From a virus, in IMG/VR virus record IMGVR_UViG_3300027847_001060, positions 1-20,340 of that record: a stretch of 20,340 nt of DNA. The stretch is one strand, 5' to 3'. Below the pieces are notes generated by a model. That model made no database searches, was not told where the DNA came from, and saw nothing but the letters and a program-made list of their open reading frames with translations. Positions 170 to 20,340 of this stretch are shown piece by piece. Numbering within the stretch: the first letter of the stretch is position 1; each line of letters begins with the position of its first letter. Position numbers and translations under genes: made by a program.

Positions 170-1117
170 TTACGGAAAAACAACATCATCACGGCGTACT
201 ACGCACGTCCCAACTCTCCGGCAAACACTAGCCGCCGCAGAATTCGCCATGCGTAAGCCTTCCTTGATCCCAATCCCCATCGCTTGAGCGGCAACGAACA
301 CAGCGATTACCGTGTCGCCAGCACCAGTGACATCTATTACTTCAGTAATTGATGATCCACTAACGTCGAAATCTTCTTCGCCCGAATAAAATATCCCCCC
401 GCTTCCAAGGGTTAATAGAATCGCCTCTATCCCGAACTTTTTTCTGAGAGCGGAACACCCTTCTGTCAAGTTCTTGAGGTCGCCACCCGCTTTCGCATAT
501 TCTTTCAGGTTCGGCGTGATAGTGAAACATCCCCGGTAAATATTCCAATCATCACTTTTGGGATCGACATAAACCTGAAGCCCCTGGTTGACAGCGATTT
601 GTATAATTTTCTGGGCGGCTCCTCCCAAGTGCTTTCCATAGTCCGATAAAATCACTGGACCCGTATGCTCGCGGAGTGCCTCCACTAGATATTTAAGAAA
701 GTCACCGGCCACGAACGGGCCAACCTTTTCACGGTCAACCCTTAAAATGTGTCGATTATCCGAGATAAATCTTGTTTTCAGGGTTGTGGGGATAGCGTCT
801 TCCATCTGAAGATGGACGCTTGAGACATCCTTTAATTGGTCGGCCAGTATGTCCGCTTCGGCATCCCGCCCCGTAACCCCCATCAAAGCCGTCTTAATTC
901 CCATCGCTTGGCAATTTAACGCAACATTCGCCGCGCCACCAGCCCGATAGTCGGTGGCTCCTTGTAACATAACCGGAACTGGAGCCTCCGGGGATAGGCG
1001 ATCACACCTCCCAGACACATATTTGTCCAGAATAACGTCGCCCGTCACGAGAACTTTGTCATATATCAAGGTGCACCTCGCCCTAGTATCAATTGTACCA
1101 TTATGGAGTGTATCCAT
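170..1117 (-). CDS. PfkB-family sugar kinase, HldE kinase-domain type (heptose-7-phosphate kinase)
   Basis: A 315-residue ribokinase/PfkB kinase whose closest family by eye is the N-terminal half of HldE/RfaE, which makes heptose-1,7-bisphosphate on the ADP-heptose route to LPS. Visible motifs are VLVTGDVILDKY (22-33), the substrate loop LSPEAPVPV (41-49), the PfkB N-terminal signature around GGAAN (60-64), and the C-terminal signature DVTGAGDT with the GAGDT anion hole and catalytic Asp (265-269). The length equals the kinase domain alone; the C-terminal nucleotidyltransferase of bifunctional HldE is absent. The start ATG at 1117 has an AAAGAGGT Shine-Dalgarno; a TTG at about residue 17 would remove a weakly conserved tail. 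It is the last gene of the leftward operon, 54 bp after the Q-position gene, and looks like accessory cargo. Activity on heptose phosphate is inferred from family resemblance. Confidence 0.85.
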   Translation of the reverse strand: MDTLHNGTIDTRARCTLIYDKVLVTGDVILDKYVSGRCDRLSPEAPVPVMLQGATDYRAGGAANVALNCQAMGIKTALMGVTGRDAEADILADQLKDVSSVHLQMEDAIPTTLKTRFISDNRHILRVDREKVGPFVAGDFLKYLVEALREHTGPVILSDYGKHLGGAAQKIIQIAVNQGLQVYVDPKSDDWNIYRGCFTITPNLKEYAKAGGDLKNLTEGCSALRKKFGIEAILLTLGSGGIFYSGEEDFDVSGSSITEVIDVTGAGDTVIAVFVAAQAMGIGIKEGLRMANSAAASVCRRVGTCVVRRDDVVFP

Positions 1118-9939: not shown

Positions 9940-10340
9940 TTCTTTCGCTTCTTAGCCTTCTCCAGCGGGCCGGGTAACAACCATCCTAAAATCATGGGAA
10001 TTACGATTATTAAAATAAGTAACCAGCCTCCCATGCTTACGAGATCCCCTAAGAGGGTCCAGAAATTATCGGGCGCACAATTAGACGCTGTAGTCATGTT
10101 CTCTCCTTTCGATGGGGCCATCAAGTCTACACCGGCACTCATTACAGAGGCAGTCAGACCCCCAGCGACCGCCGGCACAAGGGCACCCGAACTCAATGCA
10201 GATGCCGCACCGGCAGCCACCGTCGTAGCCCCCCCTATGAGAGCCGCCTTTTTCCAGATTTGGCACCCCGCCAGACACGCGCTAAGTCCTATAATTATCA
10301 GTAAACGCAGTGAAATAATCTTTATCTGTGATCTCGACAT
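9936..10340 (-). CDS. Lipoprotein with C-terminal membrane helix, u-spanin-like topology
   Basis: A 134-residue membrane-linked protein. The N-terminus has basic residues, a hydrophobic stretch LRLLIIIGLSACLAGC and a clear lipobox LAGC with lipidation Cys 26, with Gln at the next position, favouring the outer membrane. A glycine/alanine-rich, glycine-zipper-like segment (32-70) follows. A hydrophobic helix MGGWLLILIIVIPMILGWLL (103-122) is followed by the basic tail LEKAKKRKK. A protein anchored at both ends, outer-membrane lipid and inner-membrane helix, in about 130 residues matches unimolecular spanins such as phage T1 gp11. The Gly/Ala-rich middle is unusual for a spanin, so a pore or virion-ejection component is the alternative. 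Its start lies inside the end of the giant gene. Confidence 0.6.
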   Translation of the reverse strand: MSRSQIKIISLRLLIIIGLSACLAGCQIWKKAALIGGATTVAAGAASALSSGALVPAVAGGLTASVMSAGVDLMAPSKGENMTTASNCAPDNFWTLLGDLVSMGGWLLILIIVIPMILGWLLPGPLEKAKKRKK

Positions 10341-13300
10341 TTTTATCGCTTGCCTCTCCGTATCTCCACGCGTTCAAGAATGCTCTCCAATCCCCTTCCG
10401 CTTGTTTCCAAACAAGTAGCAATAATTTTTTGCCAACCTGTCGGTAAAGTTTCCTATTAGAGGGGCTGGTCAAATCCCCCGCTCCCCCATAATCATATCG
10501 CTCTTTATACCCTTCCATATCTGGCTCTTTCCCAAACTTTAGAAACAGTCTTCCCTGCTCTATGAATCTATCAACATACTTTGCCTCTTCTTCGGTTAGG
10601 GTTAACTGGTCCTTCGCGGAGTCCATTAATCCCTTAGTGATCTGCAAGGGGCCATACGCGCTTGACCCATCCTTGGGGGCGAAGGAAGTGCGAACAAATG
10701 GCTTCAATCTATTTAATCCTCGAAACTCTGCTTTGAATATCCCCTTGTACAGATTATCCGCAAGGCGGCTATCTTCCCCGCTCTCCTTAACCATAGATTG
10801 CAGAGACGTAACGTCATCGTTATCTTCAATTTCTGTTGAAGCGCCAGCATTACTTATGAAGGAAAACTTCGACTCCTCCTTCTTTTGGGTGGGTTTATCA
10901 CCCCATAGGTCATACATTCTCTTGGCGACTCCATTCTTTAATATAATGAGTCGATCAAGTTCTTCGCGCCTCTCCAACGGACTAAGTTCAGAGTTACCAA
11001 TAACCTTCATTTGCTTATTTATTTTTCCGATATACGTCGAAGCGTTGTTATAAACCTTGTGCCACTGAAGCAGTTCGCCCTTCTCCGCAAGCAGAGATCT
11101 TTCCTCCTCCACCAGTCCCTCTCGCCTATAATGATTGTAATCAGCCTTGGCGTTATTAACCTTCTTCAACTGTTCATACAGGAACGTCATGGGGAGGGTG
11201 TTGCGTAATGGGCTTTGTGTTATGTACCCCCCAACAGGAATCACTCCGTACATCTGGTCTAATCTCTTACCCTCCAACTCCTTAAAGGACTCAATTGGGC
11301 TATACACCGTTTCCACCGCTCCGGGTATAACAGAGCCTAGCCAACCAAAGTATCCCTTTATCAAGTGATCAGCCTGAACGGGAGATAAAAAATTATCACC
11401 GGGCAACTTATCAATTAGTTCTGAAGTAAACACCGCAACATCGGAGGTGTATTTGTACTTCATATTCGTTTTAGAAATGTTACTGATCCGCCAGCCCAGA
11501 GATTCAATCGGTCGGTCCCTAAAACTATCTTTATTCGTGGCTACTTCCAATGCTGGCTTAAACGCTTGGAAACGCCAATCGAATGCCAACTGATCATGCA
11601 AGATAGACAGGACTCGTTCTCTCACAAAATTTGGATTAGGGCTTTCGTTAATAAAATTTCTGGTAAGAGTTTGGGCTACTGAGGCTATTGCCCCAATCTC
11701 GAAAGGCTTTGGAATTAAGAACCAACCATCAGAAAATGGAATTCTAACCGGCCAGTATGTTTCTTTTTTCCAATTCTCCATGACCTGATATTCTTCATCG
11801 TCCTCCATTCCCAATTCATAAAGGACGCTTGCAAGGGCGATGGTTCCGACAACCCCGAACAGTCTATTTCTCAATGTTTTGTCCCTAGCCGTTCGCCCCA
11901 ACTTGTCCAAGCCTTGTACGCGGGCATTGAGGAATGAAATACCACTTATAAAATACTGAGTCGCTACCCACCCACCATGTGAGGAAAAATTTAAAAGATC
12001 ACGGGCCTCAAACTGCGCTTGCATGTTCCCGACCTCTCCTACACGGTTCATGTAGAGAGCGACGCGGTTAGCATTCTCCAGTCTATTTCCGAAATCCTGG
12101 TAAGCGTCCCACCCTTTCGCTAAGAAAGCAGCGCCCTTTTTCCCCGTGTCGAGTACACGCTCCTCCACTTCTTTCTCGGAAGAAGGCCATCCTCGCTGAA
12201 CCTGCTTTCGACTAAGTTTAACGGTGCGCCTAAGAGCGGAAGGGTCGTCATGCAGGTAGCCCATTACAAAGGCTCCGCCACCAGCAATCATATTTTGATA
12301 AACGATACTGTCTTTTTTGGTATTCGCCATTCCCTTAGCAACGTTCCCAAACACGTTATAGGACATCTCACCAACAGCGATGGAATGCAAGGCGTCGCGA
12401 ATAAGGTTTCTACTCTTGAATGCCGGACTAGCCGTGACGCCGTAAGTGAACACTCTCTTAAACTTAGATAATGTATTCACACCCGGCAACTGCCCCGCGC
12501 TCCAATTCATTGCGAGAAGGGACTTAAGAACCATTTGGTCATTAACTTCGTACCAAACTTTTTTCCCACCTTTCAAAACATAAATATAGTTATCATACTT
12601 GTCAGACTTTGCTTTCCGTTTTCCAAATTCAATCTTTGGGACTTCCTTATCTGGAACTAGATTAGCCGCCCCATGAATGACTGCCGCATCTACAGCGGCC
12701 ACACCCGCTCTATTCTTCATAGAAGCGTTGAGGAGGGCCGCCCAATTCATCATTAGGTTCTCAAGAACATCATTTGTTTGTACTTCGCTACCCTTTAACC
12801 TATGGTGTGCAATAAATGCACTAAAATTTACAAAGTCTCCATTCATCGCGGGGCCGCGAACTTTTGTTCGACTACCCTCTTCGAACTCCCGATAGAATGG
12901 CAGATAGAAATCAGTTAACAAAGCGTTTGCATCCTCTTGGCTAATAGAACCAGACGAAACCGATAACTGAACAATGTCCTTTTGGAACTTTCCCAACGCC
13001 TTCATTTTCTGGGCGTATAAAAGAGTGCGGCTCTTCCCTGTTACGGTTTTCCCTTTGCCGAGATTCTTGAGATTAGTGATGTCATCTTTTGTAAAGTGAT
13101 GCTCCCTCCCTTCATTCATTAATTGACCCGCTCTATGTCCCACAATCCAAGAAAGGAATCTATCAACCTCGCCCTCAAGGGATTCAAGCACGTCTAACAG
13201 ACCTTCGCTTCCAGGCTGGAGAAGATACCCATCAAACTTGCCGTCACGCGTGGTCTCCATAGGCCGTCCGAAGTTGAGAACCGCATGTAACAATCCATGA

Positions 13301-16300
13301 GCATTGTCCGAAAGATGCATCATCTGCCACGCAGTATTTCCCTCTTCTCCCAACAACGCTTTAATACCTCGGTATCGATCAACCGCGCCTTGAGTCGCCC
13401 ATAAAGCCCATCTTCCTCTGGCTTGCTCAATGTGCCTCGATAATGCCCAGCGTTTTGTTCTGCCGTTAGTCTCATTGATCAATGCCAGTTGACGAGGATT
13501 AACGTCATTAGTGGACTGATCTGGGAGGGCAAACATAACTCTCTTGCCGCTAACTACCGGGGTAACCCGTTCCTTTAAGAACCCGGAATCAACCGCAACC
13601 CCTTCAGACTCAACAATAATTCGATAGGTCTTTCTTCGGTCGATGAAGATGCGCTTAATGTACGAGGTGTAGTTATCAATGCCGCGCCCAGCATCTAATC
13701 CAGTTATGTGCGCTGGCTTATGGCCTATACGGTGATTGATGTAGAACGACAGGGCGCTCTCCTTCGCTAACGAACCTTGACTGGCAAGCCTTATTGCCTT
13801 ATCGAGATCTGATGGAAGAACCTGGCTCCTCTGGTCACCCATGTTGGAGAAATCCACCACCGGACCAAGCATTGATAATTTCGAACTCTCAATGGGAGTG
13901 AACCCAAACCGAATTGTCAGCATCGTATCTGAGTCTGCATTTACGAGATGCACGAAGCGTTCTGATGTTGCTCCATCCGTGCTGAAGTTAACCAACAGGC
14001 GGGAACTTTTAGGCAACTGATTAACTCGATCCTGTATATGAGAAAGCGCCTTATCTAATTTGACCTTGGCCTTCTTGTTCTCATGGGGCTGCGCTCGATT
14101 AGATGAGAATGCCTTATTCTTATGGAGTCCAGATAATCTCTTAATTAATATTTTCGGTCGCAAGAAGACATCATCCCTGCCCCGAAGAAGGTTGAGTAAG
14201 ATGGCCGCCTCTTGTTCATCCAAAGTATCCAAACGCGGGTCGGCTTGAGTCAGGGAGAAAGCGACCCCGCTGTCAATAACAGTCTTGGGGTTAAGGCGTC
14301 CTTTATATGCTTGTCGCAAAGCGCCCTTGCTTACCCCAAGCAAATCATTCGAGGTTAAGACTATTCCCTTAAAGTACTGTGCAAGAAAGACTCGAATCTT
14401 TGCATATATCTCCCGCACAATCCCGATTTCTTGCGTGCTTGGATCGGTAACAATTTTGGCGATTACCTCTTCAATAAACTGCTCTTCATATTGAATATTA
14501 GGTGTCCCGTCCTTGTTATCCTTATCTAAGAAACTATAGGAAACACCAATGTCATCGAAGTACGGCTTGAGAGCCTTATCCCCACGTCGGGACATGAGTT
14601 GGCTAATGAGCGCGCCATAGGCTTTCGCCCCGAGCATTCTTTTGAGTCCGAAATGGACACCAACCTCATGCAACAGCGCCTCCCGACTCTCCCCTTCCGC
14701 TATATTTTCAGAAATTAAATAGGAGATTCCAGTTTCTTTATCGTACATCCCCGGCGGCGCAAAAATAGCAAAGGCAACATCTTGGTGCAGTTCTTCCGGG
14801 AGTTCAGAGACATTAGACAGAATCTTTAAGATCCCTTGAGCCTCTAGACTCTCAATATTTTTTGATCCAAAGGCCGCGCCTAGTTCGAGTCTGGTTCGAT
14901 CAACAAAAAACCCGCCTTTGGCGGGTTCTTCTGGTTGGTAAACGACCTTTGATTGGTCGCCGAGAAGGTATGCTACTCGATCAGTTTTGTCAGTTCTTCT
15001 GGAGTCGCGTCCAGGATCAGCCTCTGATTGTGCGCTACGTCCTTCTCCATCCTGTCTTCGAGTTCCTCGGAGTACATGGTCGAATCCCAAGTCTGGACGT
15101 TTTGTGGCGAGGAGTCTTCTCGCGGCTTGTTCATAATCTGTTGCCTCTGATTTTGTATTGTCTGCGCCAAGAATAGCGAATAAATCTTTTTCATGGTACC
15201 AAATCAACGCTTGCAGGTCGGCTGTCGTTGCGTTTATTCCGTCTTGAGATAAAGCATCCTTAACCTGCGCCATGACTCCGCGCATAAACTTACGCTCTGC
15301 ACCGCCTCTAGGCGCATCTTGTAAATTATTATGAACCTCATGCAATCTTTTAATTAAGTGCTTGTCATCAGTAGTCTTTGCAAACGAAGAGCGCGACCAC
15401 TCGCCCGTAAATTCTGCCGCCCATTGAAGTCTCAATTCTTCGTTAGCGATTAGTTCCCGCCGATTGTATCCCATCAAAAGGGGCTTAACTCGTTGAGCGT
15501 CCTTTAACATCAACATCACGTTATTTTGCGTGTTGATCAATTGGGCGACATTTGATGACCTCAATAAATTACCAGTGATTCGGTTCCACGTTCTAGAGAA
15601 CCAAAGGTCTGCTGTTAGTGACTCATAATGCCCATTCAAGTTGCCAAAGAAACTTCCGATTTTAGGACCAAGCACAAGAGCGCCGCGCCCCTTGTGTTCC
15701 TTGAGTTCCCCGCTGACTTTATAACCCCTCTCCGCAAGTTCCCTGACGGTGTACTCCCTTTCAAGGAAATCACTTAGAGCAGACAGTCCCTTTTCATCCA
15801 CAAGTTTGGCAAGCAACTCATGGTTCAACTTCATTGCTTTAGTTGCTTTGCCTTTACCAAAGACTCTAATCCGTGGCTGATTAGTGCCCTCGGTATTGCG
15901 ATAATGCTCATACTGCTCAACCGCGTACTGAAGGTTTTGATCAACGTCTGTGCTTTGAGATGTGATCGCAAGGAACGCCTTCATCATCATCGCGGAATGC
16001 TTATCGGTCAGCAACTCTGGATAGATAACGCCAAAAACCTCCATCATGTTCTGGACTTTCTCTTCATACCAGCCGATGGCATTAGTCTTCTTCGACAACT
16101 GATAACGAATCTCAGCGAGCAAAACCTGTGCGATCTGGTCCCCAGCCTGTTCCGAATGATCATGCGGGGCAATACGACCTTGCTCTCTAGTTCTTTCCTG
16201 CAACCAAAGAGCAACATCGCGATTCCTGATCGCGCCATTGATTCCAGTTCCCTCAATCACCTCGCCTTGCTCTGCCGAAAACAACCCAACAGTGCTTACT

Positions 16301-19300
16301 AGGCTCGATCTATTCGAGGGTAACTCATCAGAAGGCATTAGCGGGAAAGACGCAACAATGGAGTTGCCCTCTATCCGCACACCAGTCTTGCTTGGCGTAA
16401 AGAACTTACTAACCGCCGCCCTGTATAGATTCTTCTGAGCGTCACTTAACTCTTCAAGTTGCGGATTGACCGGACCGAAGGGGCTGGTATTAGTACCTTT
16501 GCTCTTGGGGAGTCGGAATTTTACATTTTGAGCGCCTTCAGCCAACCCCTGAACAACAGGGCGAACTTTGGACTCGATCCATTTCTCTAACTTCTCAGCA
16601 GAGAGGGCAAACAGCAGTCGTTGACCGCCATCCCCTACTCGCCCATAAATGGTATTTTCGGCAGAATCAACATACTCCTGAGAAACCCGTAAGTTGCCAT
16701 CCTCCTCCGCAAGCCCTTCGGGCATTGCAAGTTCTGGATTGGCTAAAAGAGTTTCTTGAATTTCAATAAGCCGATCAGAATCTGCGGCGAGTTCAAGAGC
16801 GAACGCTGGATCTTCCCGCATCGCTTGATTGGTGCTTTCAATTAACTCAACGGCAACTACCTTTTGCTCTTGGGCAATCTGTTCATCTATTTGCTGCTCT
16901 TGAGTCTGCTCGTCTCCCCTCGTCGCCTCTTCAAGTGTAGCGCCGTACTCTTGAGCGAGTTCAAGGTAGGCGTCGTGTCTGTTATCAATGTATTCGAGTA
17001 GATCTGAGAATCCGGCTTCGCGAATTTGATCCCTGAGACTTTCTCCATATGGGTCGCTAACCCAGTCTTGAGTGATTGTTTCTCGGCTGGCGGCGAAGAA
17101 TTCTGTTTGGAAGCCATATGTTTTCCCAAGTTGTGCTTGCAGTCTGCCCAGTCTACGGGCTAATTGACTTTTGTTTAATGAGTCATTATGAATGGTGTAT
17201 TCAAGATCACCAATTCGTACCAGTTCGGACCCCTCACCAACGATGCGCTTAACTTCTCGAAATAACTTTCCGAATTGAGACTCGTTAAGGTTCTTTGTTG
17301 ACTTGAGGTATCCGCCAAGAGAGGTTGTGTCTGCTTCAATATCCAGTGACGAACTAGGGCGGAATGTGGTGACCGAATCCTGACGGTATATAAGCATTGC
17401 AGCAAGAGCATATACCTTTGCTACCAAGTCAGAATCTGAAGATGGGGACAGTGCAAGTATGTTGGCGGGAGTAATAACCTCGCCCTCAGCCCTCTTTCCA
17501 GAGACGCCCTGCTTTACGAATACCTTTGCGATCTCTCCAAGAAGGCCATCTCTGTTGCCAGTGCTGATAATATTAGAAGCGGCAGCGTGAAACTTCTTTA
17601 AGAGAGATCCCTTTAACTTAGCGACACGGGACATGCCAGGAGAAGTCGCGCTTGGTCTAGTCCCAGAAACCACATGGCGACGCGGAGCGGGCCTTGACGT
17701 ATCCTTACTTTTTACGGCTAATTTAGATTCTTCACGGAGCCTCTGCACAGAACGTTTAAGCAGCGCCAACTCACGCTTCTTCCATTTGCCGGTTGTTGTT
17801 GTTTTTGCAAGGTAGCGGTCAAGACCCGCTGCGTCTATCTCAACTTTGCCATCCTTGCGGGTGACAAATTTTTCCTCTATAACTTTTAAGTTATCAGCAA
17901 CACGGCCCTCCGGCGTCTCTTCTCCACGGGATCTTTCTATGGCCGCTTTAAGAGAACTTCTCTCAGAAGTTCTTGCCGACTCTATTTGCGAGTCTTCAAT
18001 CGCCTCCGCATCCATCTCTTGAGCGAAGTCGAGATACTCGTCAATCGTATAGTCCTGAAGGCGAACCGTGCCCAATCCAAAAGAGCGGCCATCCGGACCC
18101 GTAAGAATTATTTCTTTGTTTTTCGGCTTTAAGGAATAGCCAATCTTTTTAAGAACGGCATTCAACCTAGCCATGCTATTAGGGGACTCTAATGCGGCTC
18201 GGTAGTGAAGAACGTCCTCCCTTTTTGTTTGCCTATCTCCAGCGGGTTCACCCCTTCCCCTTTCTGTGGGAATGTTAAAGCGCCTAATCGTTTTGCTAAG
18301 AAAAGGAACAGTTACGCTAACCCCGTCCTCTGTTTGCTTTGCATCAATCTCACCTTCAGAAGGAATCCAAGATAATGCGCCTTCGTTAAAGCCCTTTGTA
18401 GCGCGAGTAGTCTTAGCGGGATCAGTCTTTTTAGACTCCTCAACGCGAGCCTCTCTATGGCCCTCATCGAACCCCTCTTCATAAGACTCCATCCCCCTTT
18501 CTTGATCGATCTGTCCGAGCCTAACGGACGCGGCTTGAGAGAAGGTGTCTACTCGTGCGGCGGTGGGGGTTGTTGCTGTAAATTCCGCCCGCTGGATATT
18601 ATCCATCTTAACAATGATCTGCCCCCTCGCTGAATTACCACGGGAGACAACATCTTTGGATGGGACGGTAATGCGGACTACTTCAGTTCCGGGTCTTTGA
18701 TCTATTCCAGTCTTATCTAGGCTCCCAAGCCCGTAGCCGCTGAGTCTGCTTAATGTGGCTACAGATACTGGAGCCTCCCCCTTAGTTCGCCTTTCCTTTT
18801 CAGCACGAAGAGCATTAAGGTCGGCCAGCACCCCGCCCCTTCCCGCCATCCGCGCCCCGCCACTCGCTTCTTCTGCTGCGAGGTTTTTTTCGATGTCTTC
18901 AATAGTGGCATCAAGTTGACCGTCATCTAATTCGGAAACTTTTTTTCCTTTATTAACTACAGTGGGCGGAGGTATTTCTCCGGGAACGTGATCATCTTGA
19001 AGAGTAAAATCTGTATCTGCGGCAGTATTCCCAATAACAAAATTTGGACTAGATGGGGGTTCAAGAAATACGTCATTACCCTCTAAAAGATTTTGTCCAT
19101 CTGGCCCAACAACAGCAACTTGGCCGGACTCTTCACTCGTTCCTGATACTTTAGTTCTTAATGGATTACCATTTCTGTCATATACAATAATCCATTCGCC
19201 ATCAATCTCTGCCGCGCCTTTCGCTTCTCTGGCTTCGATAGGGGTGGGTACTTCGGTAGGGGTGGGTACTTCGGTAGGTATTTCTGAGGATGGGGATTCA

Positions 19301-20340
19301 AGGAGGGCGGCGTCCTCTGGGGTGAGGGCGACGTATATAGAAACTTCCTCTCCAGAAGTTTCAGAGAGGGTTGCGTCTAAGCGGGCTTGGTATTCAACAT
19401 AGCCGTCTTCTTCCAAAAGACCTTCTACTATCTGGTCTAAATTTCCGCGCAACTCTATGTCGCCTAGAACTTCCTCATAGGCGGCAATGTTTGGAGTGAG
19501 GGGTGATGATTCTGCGTCAATGGACGCATCAACTTGGTCTGCGGCAGCGGCGGTTGCTGAATTAAAGCCAGCCCTCGCCTCATTTATAGCAGCGGGGTCT
19601 AGGGTGCTATTTTCACCCTTTCGAGTGCTGTCGATCTGGGCCTCTTTTATACCCTCTAAGGCTTTTTTGGTAACCTTGGTGGTTCCGGTAATCGCCTTGA
19701 TTGCGCCAACCGTTACCGCACTCTGGCCTATAGAGGTGAAGGACTCAAGCAAAGCCTCTTTAATGCTGCCTTGGCCTGTTGCTACTTCTTCCCCGTAATA
19801 CTCACCAACACCTTCACCCAGCACTTCAAGGCTAGTGGCTCCCAAGATACGGCCAGCGCCCCTTATTCGTGTCTGGCTTCTTGAGAACTTTTCAGCAGCC
19901 TTAGTCACCGAAGAAACAGACGCATCAGTCATAGTGCCGCTTTTCTTGAGGTAGGTCTCCATGGCGGTTGCCATGTCACTTCGCAACTCAGGATTTTTCT
20001 TTAAAGCCGCTACGAGAACCTTCAAGTCGGATTTAGCGACATCCACGCCCGCGTCTTTAAACGCCTTGCCTATCGATGCCTCCATGACTCTTCCGGGGGA
20101 GGTTATAATCCTACCGCCGAGCGCCATTGTGAAAAGATCAACTGCGGCAATTGTAAGACCCTTCTTGGCGCCTTCGGCCCTTATCTGGGCAACAATATCC
20201 GGGTTGCTCATGCCTTCACGGATGGATTCTGCATTCGTAAGGTCGTAACCACGCTCGGTTAAGACATCAAAACCCTTTTCGCCAGTAATGGTCATCACGG
20301 TTCCGGAAGTCATTCCGATAGCGCCTAGAACCAATGGAGT
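10282..20340 (-). CDS. Giant phage polyvalent protein, likely ejected virion protein (5' end outside window)
   Basis: An open frame of more than 3350 residues. The frame runs off the right window edge and its true start is not visible; residue numbers count from the TTG at 20334. Visible parts: an Ala-rich start, an acidic/proline linker with a TEVPTP repeat (about 354-366) and charged coiled stretches to about 1000. A conserved polyvalent-type block around PKIGSFFGNLNGHYESLTAD and LQALIWYHEKDLF lies at about 1550-1725. A zincin-like HEVGVHFGL (H1889, E1890, H1894) is followed by YEEQFIEEVIA. An LPD38-like region at about 2300-2950 includes GVTASPAFKSRNLIRDALHS and a hydrophobic VVGTIALASVLYE (about 2825). 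The C-terminus (about 3195-3345) resembles a lysozyme/lytic transglycosylase: Glu 3203 in FKAEFRG and SSAYGPLQIT (3224-3233). Such proteins are thought to enter the host with the DNA. Cell-wall cutting and peptidase activity are inferred. Confidence 0.85.
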   Translation of the reverse strand, partial: TPLVLGAIGMTSGTVMTITGEKGFDVLTERGYDLTNAESIREGMSNPDIVAQIRAEGAKKGLTIAAVDLFTMALGGRIITSPGRVMEASIGKAFKDAGVDVAKSDLKVLVAALKKNPELRSDMATAMETYLKKSGTMTDASVSSVTKAAEKFSRSQTRIRGAGRILGATSLEVLGEGVGEYYGEEVATGQGSIKEALLESFTSIGQSAVTVGAIKAITGTTKVTKKALEGIKEAQIDSTRKGENSTLDPAAINEARAGFNSATAAAADQVDASIDAESSPLTPNIAAYEEVLGDIELRGNLDQIVEGLLEEDGYVEYQARLDATLSETSGEEVSIYVALTPEDAALLESPSSEIPTEVPTPTEVPTPIEAREAKGAAEIDGEWIIVYDRNGNPLRTKVSGTSEESGQVAVVGPDGQNLLEGNDVFLEPPSSPNFVIGNTAADTDFTLQDDHVPGEIPPPTVVNKGKKVSELDDGQLDATIEDIEKNLAAEEASGGARMAGRGGVLADLNALRAEKERRTKGEAPVSVATLSRLSGYGLGSLDKTGIDQRPGTEVVRITVPSKDVVSRGNSARGQIIVKMDNIQRAEFTATTPTAARVDTFSQAASVRLGQIDQERGMESYEEGFDEGHREARVEESKKTDPAKTTRATKGFNEGALSWIPSEGEIDAKQTEDGVSVTVPFLSKTIRRFNIPTERGRGEPAGDRQTKREDVLHYRAALESPNSMARLNAVLKKIGYSLKPKNKEIILTGPDGRSFGLGTVRLQDYTIDEYLDFAQEMDAEAIEDSQIESARTSERSSLKAAIERSRGEETPEGRVADNLKVIEEKFVTRKDGKVEIDAAGLDRYLAKTTTTGKWKKRELALLKRSVQRLREESKLAVKSKDTSRPAPRRHVVSGTRPSATSPGMSRVAKLKGSLLKKFHAAASNIISTGNRDGLLGEIAKVFVKQGVSGKRAEGEVITPANILALSPSSDSDLVAKVYALAAMLIYRQDSVTTFRPSSSLDIEADTTSLGGYLKSTKNLNESQFGKLFREVKRIVGEGSELVRIGDLEYTIHNDSLNKSQLARRLGRLQAQLGKTYGFQTEFFAASRETITQDWVSDPYGESLRDQIREAGFSDLLEYIDNRHDAYLELAQEYGATLEEATRGDEQTQEQQIDEQIAQEQKVVAVELIESTNQAMREDPAFALELAADSDRLIEIQETLLANPELAMPEGLAEEDGNLRVSQEYVDSAENTIYGRVGDGGQRLLFALSAEKLEKWIESKVRPVVQGLAEGAQNVKFRLPKSKGTNTSPFGPVNPQLEELSDAQKNLYRAAVSKFFTPSKTGVRIEGNSIVASFPLMPSDELPSNRSSLVSTVGLFSAEQGEVIEGTGINGAIRNRDVALWLQERTREQGRIAPHDHSEQAGDQIAQVLLAEIRYQLSKKTNAIGWYEEKVQNMMEVFGVIYPELLTDKHSAMMMKAFLAITSQSTDVDQNLQYAVEQYEHYRNTEGTNQPRIRVFGKGKATKAMKLNHELLAKLVDEKGLSALSDFLEREYTVRELAERGYKVSGELKEHKGRGALVLGPKIGSFFGNLNGHYESLTADLWFSRTWNRITGNLLRSSNVAQLINTQNNVMLMLKDAQRVKPLLMGYNRRELIANEELRLQWAAEFTGEWSRSSFAKTTDDKHLIKRLHEVHNNLQDAPRGGAERKFMRGVMAQVKDALSQDGINATTADLQALIWYHEKDLFAILGADNTKSEATDYEQAARRLLATKRPDLGFDHVLRGTRRQDGEGRSAQSEADPGRDSRRTDKTDRVAYLLGDQSKVVYQPEEPAKGGFFVDRTRLELGAAFGSKNIESLEAQGILKILSNVSELPEELHQDVAFAIFAPPGMYDKETGISYLISENIAEGESREALLHEVGVHFGLKRMLGAKAYGALISQLMSRRGDKALKPYFDDIGVSYSFLDKDNKDGTPNIQYEEQFIEEVIAKIVTDPSTQEIGIVREIYAKIRVFLAQYFKGIVLTSNDLLGVSKGALRQAYKGRLNPKTVIDSGVAFSLTQADPRLDTLDEQEAAILLNLLRGRDDVFLRPKILIKRLSGLHKNKAFSSNRAQPHENKKAKVKLDKALSHIQDRVNQLPKSSRLLVNFSTDGATSERFVHLVNADSDTMLTIRFGFTPIESSKLSMLGPVVDFSNMGDQRSQVLPSDLDKAIRLASQGSLAKESALSFYINHRIGHKPAHITGLDAGRGIDNYTSYIKRIFIDRRKTYRIIVESEGVAVDSGFLKERVTPVVSGKRVMFALPDQSTNDVNPRQLALINETNGRTKRWALSRHIEQARGRWALWATQGAVDRYRGIKALLGEEGNTAWQMMHLSDNAHGLLHAVLNFGRPMETTRDGKFDGYLLQPGSEGLLDVLESLEGEVDRFLSWIVGHRAGQLMNEGREHHFTKDDITNLKNLGKGKTVTGKSRTLLYAQKMKALGKFQKDIVQLSVSSGSISQEDANALLTDFYLPFYREFEEGSRTKVRGPAMNGDFVNFSAFIAHHRLKGSEVQTNDVLENLMMNWAALLNASMKNRAGVAAVDAAVIHGAANLVPDKEVPKIEFGKRKAKSDKYDNYIYVLKGGKKVWYEVNDQMVLKSLLAMNWSAGQLPGVNTLSKFKRVFTYGVTASPAFKSRNLIRDALHSIAVGEMSYNVFGNVAKGMANTKKDSIVYQNMIAGGGAFVMGYLHDDPSALRRTVKLSRKQVQRGWPSSEKEVEERVLDTGKKGAAFLAKGWDAYQDFGNRLENANRVALYMNRVGEVGNMQAQFEARDLLNFSSHGGWVATQYFISGISFLNARVQGLDKLGRTARDKTLRNRLFGVVGTIALASVLYELGMEDDEEYQVMENWKKETYWPVRIPFSDGWFLIPKPFEIGAIASVAQTLTRNFINESPNPNFVRERVLSILHDQLAFDWRFQAFKPALEVATNKDSFRDRPIESLGWRISNISKTNMKYKYTSDVAVFTSELIDKLPGDNFLSPVQADHLIKGYFGWLGSVIPGAVETVYSPIESFKELEGKRLDQMYGVIPVGGYITQSPLRNTLPMTFLYEQLKKVNNAKADYNHYRREGLVEEERSLLAEKGELLQWHKVYNNASTYIGKINKQMKVIGNSELSPLERREELDRLIILKNGVAKRMYDLWGDKPTQKKEESKFSFISNAGASTEIEDNDDVTSLQSMVKESGEDSRLADNLYKGIFKAEFRGLNRLKPFVRTSFAPKDGSSAYGPLQITKGLMDSAKDQLTLTEEEAKYVDRFIEQGRLFLKFGKEPDMEGYKERYDYGGAGDLTSPSNRKLYRQVGKKLLLLVWKQAEGDWRAFLNAWRYGEASDKNVEITDKDYFTAFTDNYRT
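14905..14927 (-). terminator. Canonical intrinsic terminator inside the giant gene, sense orientation
   Basis: On the minus strand AACCCGCC pairs perfectly with GGCGGGTT around AAA, and the right arm runs straight into a T-run (14910-14905 is six T, the first two in the stem). It reads in the same direction as the giant gene and codes for EPAKGGFF in its frame, so the gene would have to be transcribed through it. It lies 45 nt after the stop of the nested ORF at 14973-15134. Confidence 0.85.
14973..15134 (-). CDS. Candidate nested gene in the +1 frame of the giant ORF
   Basis: A 53-residue frame, same strand as the giant gene but shifted. It starts MNKPREDSSPQNVQTWDSTM, continues YSEELEDRMEKDVAHNQRL and ends ILDATPEELTKLIE. 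ATG 15134 has AGAGG (15148-15144) 9 nt upstream. The frame uses all four Leu CTG/CTC codons of a typical expressed gene and has no rare-codon clusters. The giant frame over the same bases is Arg/Gly/Asp-rich linker (RGTRRQDGEGRSAQSEADPG), less protein-like. A perfect terminator follows 45 nt after the stop. An in-frame extension to 15194 exists but lacks a ribosome site. No family is recognised. It could be a real overlapping gene or a former separate gene absorbed into the giant frame; chance remains possible. Confidence 0.45.
   Translation of the reverse strand: MNKPREDSSPQNVQTWDSTMYSEELEDRMEKDVAHNQRLILDATPEELTKLIE
19241..19276 (-). repeat. 18-bp tandem repeat coding for a TEVPTP linker
   Basis: Two perfect copies of an 18-bp unit (plus-strand GGGGTGGGTACTTCGGTA), followed by a partial third copy. 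They keep the giant reading frame and encode repeated TEVPTP, a proline-rich spacer. Copy number may vary between relatives by slippage. Confidence 0.9.

Follow-up and report, generated by a model that had tools for sequence, protein, structure and literature searches.

A probable small overlapping gene in the +1 frame of a giant polyvalent-protein gene of a temperate phage

Background

When a ribosome-binding site, an open reading frame (ORF) and a terminator-like hairpin follow one another inside a much longer gene, on the same strand, do they make up a gene of their own? The question is raised by a 20,340-base IMG/VR fragment of a temperate phage (referred to below as 'the window', meaning the whole stretch of DNA analysed), which encodes an integrase, an ERF annealing protein and a YqaJ/RecE exonuclease. 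A PfkB-family carbohydrate kinase gene is also present on this fragment, at 173-1117 (-). Gene callers discard ORFs nested within long genes. An earlier note on this DNA had described an AGAGG ribosome site, a 53-codon ORF in another frame and a hairpin with a U-tract 45 nt past its stop, all of which proved correct to the base. It had left two readings side by side, namely a 'moron' (a self-contained cargo gene) inserted so that the giant frame stayed open, and a true overlapping gene.

Results and discussion

The giant gene and its modules

The host gene lies at 10282-20334 (-); the window covers at least 3,350 of its codons and leaves its 5' end open. In L013, a contig that is 99.97% identical, the giant ORF measures 3,560 codons from stop to stop. 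Its product is a phage polyvalent protein, one very long chain with domains of the LPD/ART-PolyVal type: it has a C-terminal LPD38 domain (11257-11799 (-), E = 2e-23, 83.9 bits against a cut-off of 27), a zincin-like metallopeptidase module and an all-alpha DUF7178-like domain.

The limits of the DUF7178-like domain (15118-16329 (-)) were set from alignments of relatives, and its end coincides with the start of the nested gene. Its motifs are GWYxxK, GPKIGxFFxNL, DLQAxLWYxEKxLY and DYxxAA, in that order, and AF2 predicts an all-alpha fold (pLDDT 89.6). Weak matches to PF23802 (DUF7178), with E <= 0.1 and 1.2e-5 at best, were listed for 20 of the 39 aligned relatives; the matches listed do not include the domain of the window itself. 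The best viral fold matches of the predicted structure were models named 'ART-PolyVal-like' and 'Large polyvalent protein associated', while a search of the PDB by sequence and fold matched no solved structure. An HhH-GPD glycosylase-like identity, suspected from the motif GPKIGxFFxNL...DRW...NR, was unsupported by the fold search.

The zincin-like module (LLHEVGVHFG; 14540-14900 (-), limits approximate) comes next after the hairpin in the giant frame. In other phages this module is preceded by unrelated sequence, which places the small gene and the hairpin at a module junction.

The nested ORF and its signals

The nested gene occupies 15134-14973 (-), wholly within the giant ORF and in its +1 frame; its 53 codons, followed by a TAG stop, encode the protein MNKPREDSSPQNVQTWDSTMYSEELEDRMEKDVAHNQRLILDATPEELTKLIE. 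The Shine-Dalgarno (SD) sequence AGAGG (15148-15144 (-)) lies inside the giant codons TCA GAG GCA, with a duplex energy of -5.8 kcal/mol, and the ATG, 9 nt downstream at 15134 (-), is formed within the giant codons for (D)YE. Judged from these signals, independent initiation at AGAGG...ATG is likely.

The hairpin begins 45 nt 3' of the nested stop. Its stem and loop, AACCCGCC-AAA-GGCGGGTT, span 14927-14909 (-) and are followed by the U-tract TTTTGTTG, so that the whole terminator-like element (14927-14905 (-)) lies within the giant codons (E)PAKGGFF. The fold has an energy of -17.5 kcal/mol (z -4.1), and no other sense-strand terminator with six or more G-C pairs occurs in the 10-kb giant gene. 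As 0.017 such terminators are expected per codon-permuted giant gene, the hairpin is unusual. Whether it would terminate transcription in vivo is, on its sequence, an even bet. A further terminator-like hairpin, GCCGCC-GATGA-GGCGGC-TTTTTCTTTG, was seen in a relative, L018, where it lies in the giant frame roughly 2.85 kb 5' of the domain motif.

The length of the nested ORF is ordinary: when the synonymous codons of the giant gene were permuted, the stop-limited length from the first start (73 amino acids) was close to the null expectation (mean 58, p = 0.27). Only 4 of 39 families passed this length test at p < 0.05. The 135-amino-acid nested ORF of the L048/L063 family passed codon permutation at p = 0.002. 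Length was therefore dropped as evidence for a nested gene, since +1 frames are naturally open in these genes. For the window alone, the presence here of an ORF of at least 40 amino acids preceded by this SD is of borderline significance (p = 0.057), and it is conservation in relatives that raises the unit above chance.

Selection on the nested frame in close relatives

Scans of viral contigs returned, among the matches listed, two near-identical contigs and six whose upstream domain is about 58-59% identical (L014-L019). In all six, both the giant and the nested frame are retained, as is the hairpin, which is the opposite of the outcome proposed in the earlier note as evidence against a nested gene, namely relatives keeping the giant frame and breaking the nested frame and the stem. 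The stretch comprising SD and start, ATCAGAGGCAACAGATTATGA, is identical at 21 of 21 nt between the window and L018, and the nested proteins share 62% of their residues, the changes being conservative (window MNKPREDSSPQNVQTWDSTMYSEELEDRMEKDVAHNQRLILDATPEELTKLIE, relative MSKRQEDSSPRNVQTWDSTMSSEEVEKQIEQDVQHNVKAILDASPEELKEMMKT). The longer 73-amino-acid form starting at 15194 is not conserved, a stop being present there in the relatives. In L014, L016 and L018 the hairpin reads CCCGCC-TCT-GGCGGG-TTTTCTG; its stem and five giant codons, identical in the relatives, form an island of conservation preceded by 45 nt that cannot be aligned.

Synonymous change was then scored at identical giant residues, counting differing codons in the overlap and in the rest of the gene. 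Only 5 of 33 residues differed in codon in the overlap, compared to 657 of 1057 elsewhere (p = 6e-8), and the nested overlap is the lowest synonymous-difference window of the entire giant gene. A mutation cold spot or a recent recombination would reduce both classes of change, whereas amino-acid changes are undiminished: the giant frame shows 20 amino-acid and 5 synonymous changes in the overlap, compared to 19 and 16 in the 53 codons upstream. By classes of change, omega in the overlap comes to 0.47 (p = 0.017) when computed for the nested frame and to 0.77, not significant, for the giant frame. Constraint is thus not that of the giant frame only, being stronger on the nested one. The suggestion that the nested frame looks more like an evolved protein than the giant frame holds overall, but not for the first 20 or so nested codons, over which both frames are conserved.

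These values rest on three distinct sequences with this version of the nested protein (window, L014-type and L016-type) among the matches listed; searching by DNA pattern brought up no others related to that of the window. Preservation of the nested frame, of the SD and ATG and of the hairpin, together with the synonymous constraint and the lower nested omega, argues for a true overlapping gene rather than a moron or an accident. On this comparative evidence, we consider it highly probable that the nested ORF is a real protein-coding gene. The broader statement, that it is a true overlapping gene with its own initiation in the +1 frame of a giant polyvalent virion-type gene, at the junction between DUF7178-like domain and zincin module, appears very likely.

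The same arrangement in divergent giants

Eighty loci with a DUF7178-like domain were read, of which 45 remained after removal of near-copies. Nearly all domain loci have a +1 ORF of 45-135 amino acids just 3' of the domain, and in most of the approximately 45 divergent giants it is preceded by an SD. The strong SD is often encoded in giant codons, as in AGGAGG within Gln-Glu-Val. Because such ORFs may arise by chance, they were tested one by one. The site was enriched for SD-preceded +1 ORFs relative to the rest of the same genes in 29 of 39 cases at p < 0.1 (Fisher 1e-24, related loci not being fully independent).

Synonymous constraint was significant in 8 of the 10 divergent families tested: those of the window, L007/L008, L078/L080, L028/L029/L040, L038/L049, L065/L050, L063/L074 and L010/L011. 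It was absent in the two other tested pairs, L066/L083 and L069/L066. For families other than the window's, the statistics come from sequence pairs, with incomplete independence among related loci. Synonymous differences in the overlap, compared to those elsewhere in the gene, numbered 1/35 against 406/1022 for L007/L008, 2/40 against 360/908 for L028/L029, 3/34 against 495/1248 for L078/L080 and 8/87 against 305/1139 for L063/L074. The clearest case is L007/L008, where the nested omega is 0.17 and the giant frame is unconstrained; here the nested ORF starts 123 codons past the motif, the usual distance being 13-62. Nested omega was 0.38 for L048/L060, and was not significant in L028/L040 or L066/L083.

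From one family to another, the nested proteins could not be aligned. Since, in addition, no known family was matched, common descent between the families is not shown. Two likenesses were discounted. The first 13 nested residues shared across families (MxKPxxDSSPxNV) were dropped as a sign of homology because the giant motif DYxxAAxR dictates them, and a second apparent nested ORF (EALRR.KVRQLS; L011, L027, L028, L069), judged by eye, was dropped because the conserved giant motif GRYSSxGLAPLEGAP produces it.

A scan of genome contigs yielded five MAG loci. Three phages with annotated records, DC33, ctEw122 and ctQRb9, carry the nested ORF without any annotation for it. Limnohabitans phage DC33 (PQ492659.1; L009, L104), isolated on strain DCL3, has a circular genome of 39 kb, in which a giant gene of 9.4 kb resembles those of the podovirus records MW202640 and MW202722; its nested start lies near record position 27781 (-). 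The record is filed under Inoviridae, an apparent taxonomic error. Elsewhere in the giant gene of L007 (4989-5192, compared with L008), a second segment without synonymous divergence was seen; it contains an SD-preceded +1 ORF of 67 amino acids (MPRTISMKYSEEQAAKRGF...), possibly another nested gene.

Run-through or overprinting

In L026, L037, L045, L071 and L086 the host gene ends shortly past the domain, and the small gene, a normal neighbour overlapping the host gene, reaches past the host stop. At L086 (1531-1800), the host stop is followed by the small gene and then, 57 nt on, by a terminator of eight G-C pairs; this is likely the unfused counterpart of the window's arrangement. On an unrooted tree of the domain, the forms in which the host stops and those in which it runs on interleave, with at least five changes that can be read in either direction. 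The simplest history would be that of a downstream cistron repeatedly run through by the host frame: at first, the small gene would have stood as a separate cistron behind the domain gene and overlapped its 3' end, an arrangement still seen in L045, L071 and L086, and giants would then have been extended through it more than once.

A different history, which competes with the run-through and not with the reality of the gene, is overprinting: the +1 ORF would have been born de novo within an existing giant, and genes that now stop nearby would have lost their 3' part later. The naturally open +1 frames offer ample raw material for this, and it is because the small proteins of the families cannot be aligned and the tree is unrooted that we keep overprinting as a possible history, if a less probable one. 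Against it stand the small genes protruding beyond the host stop, the interleaving of the two forms on the tree, and the terminator, which sits at the junction in the manner of an operon end and which at L086, where the host stops, again follows the small gene.

Other explanations considered

Three further explanations were weighed. First, selection might act on the RNA, as a regulatory RNA or attenuator, with the open nested frame being incidental. The conserved hairpin and U-tract would fit, and Rfam returned a weak rsmX match (14905-14986 (-)) that covers the hairpin and the 3' end of the nested ORF, although with 22.9 bits against a gathering threshold of 56 (E = 0.064) it is sub-threshold and probably due to chance. 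However, constraint spans the ORF but leaves out the unalignable 45 nt that separate its stop from the hairpin, substitutions track the codon rhythm of the nested frame (in the window as in L007/L008 and L048/L060), and constraint is present in other families without the terminator; we therefore judge this explanation very improbable.

The nested frame might also be reached by a programmed frameshift, giant-frame ribosomes slipping into it to make a truncated giant with a nested tail. In the window it has no stop in the 24 codons preceding the ATG, and the relative frame is the same, +1, in all families. But in 13 loci (L028, L029, L050, L051, L083, L078, L080, L020, L061, L048, L075, L038 and L049) an in-frame stop stands one or two codons before the start, often spanned by a strong SD, as in AGGAGGTAGACC-TTG, so frameshifting is not the route there. 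A stop is also present 10 codons upstream of the start in L014, and the letter-for-letter identity of SD and ATG between the window and L018 speaks further against slippage, which we hold to be hardly credible.

The moron reading, that of a recent insertion with its own signals, can be set aside with similar confidence: the unit does have its own SD, a terminator after it, as the morons of lambdoid phages have, and a promoter-like 9/12 match at 15353-15325, but this match is not conserved and such matches are rarer here than in shuffles (11 compared to 19.2), the relatives show no empty site and all six carry the nested protein, which among the matches listed is known at this site alone (eight contigs of two kinds), a +1 ORF fills the same fixed place in deeply divergent relatives, and an insertion would not give an ATG and first 20 or so codons double-coded with the end of a conserved domain.

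The nested product and known systems

AF2 predicts for the overlapping gene's 53-amino-acid product a disordered N-terminus and helices at residues 23-42 and 45-52, the helical part making up the C-terminal two thirds; its net charge is -7. Inspection of the sequence revealed no cysteine, hydrophobic stretch or signal peptide. With the nested protein as query, tblastn gave no match in phage records, and 32 nested proteins compared with Pfam, PHROG, NCBIfam and PADLOC fell into no convincing family, the best weak matches being single ones to DpdF (0.0057) and to a holin PHROG (0.087).

The lambda spanins Rz and Rz1 offer the closest formal parallel: the gene for Rz1, a Cys-lipoprotein for lysis, is embedded in Rz. 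In both cases a small gene lies wholly inside another, on the same strand, in the +1 frame and with its own SD, and both products are expected to be used. Unlike Rz1, the nested product lacks the lipobox cysteine of such a spanin, and unlike in Rz/Rz1 the host is a giant virion-type gene with a terminator inside its frame. Titles and abstracts of the literature gave no account of genes nested in phage polyvalent proteins. Another parallel is offered by de novo overprinted genes, for example the embedded single-gene lysis genes of ssRNA phages (PMC7693330), which overlap other genes and encode small, diverse and unalignable proteins. The nested genes resemble them in these respects, but differ in their fixed place after one domain and in showing no sign of lysis function.

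A possible mechanism

The small protein, acidic and with a flexible N-terminus and two helices, is probably made by ribosomes initiating on the giant's own mRNA. In the window's lineage, the giant frame continues through the small gene and the terminator, and the giant residues there would consequently be mostly a by-product linker. Without close translation of the giant frame, the hairpin could stop transcription, whereas giant-frame ribosomes trailing the polymerase would normally mask it; through such masking, the hairpin would set the share of transcripts that end after the small gene. The small protein may assist the module encoded upstream of it, during packaging or the assembly of virions. 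That it is a helical partner of the DUF7178-like module is the role we favour, at low confidence.

More tentatively still, these loci may represent an unannotated class of small +1 genes tied to the DUF7178-like module. Each would encode a fast-evolving required partner of that module (a chaperone, a packaging aid or an inhibitor), which the giants would have run through repeatedly, one clade also running through a working terminator under ribosome control; we put this forward as a speculation.

Conclusions

At one and the same module junction, dozens of divergent phage giants carry nested genes; none of these is annotated, not even in the annotated isolate DC33. If the reading as overlapping genes is true, an overlooked set of small phage proteins would be added, and the Arg/Gly/Asp-rich linkers of giant virion proteins would be explained as by-products of a second frame. 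The loci would also provide repeated natural cases of a gene's frame crossing a downstream cistron and, in the window's lineage, a test case of a conserved intrinsic terminator within a translated gene.
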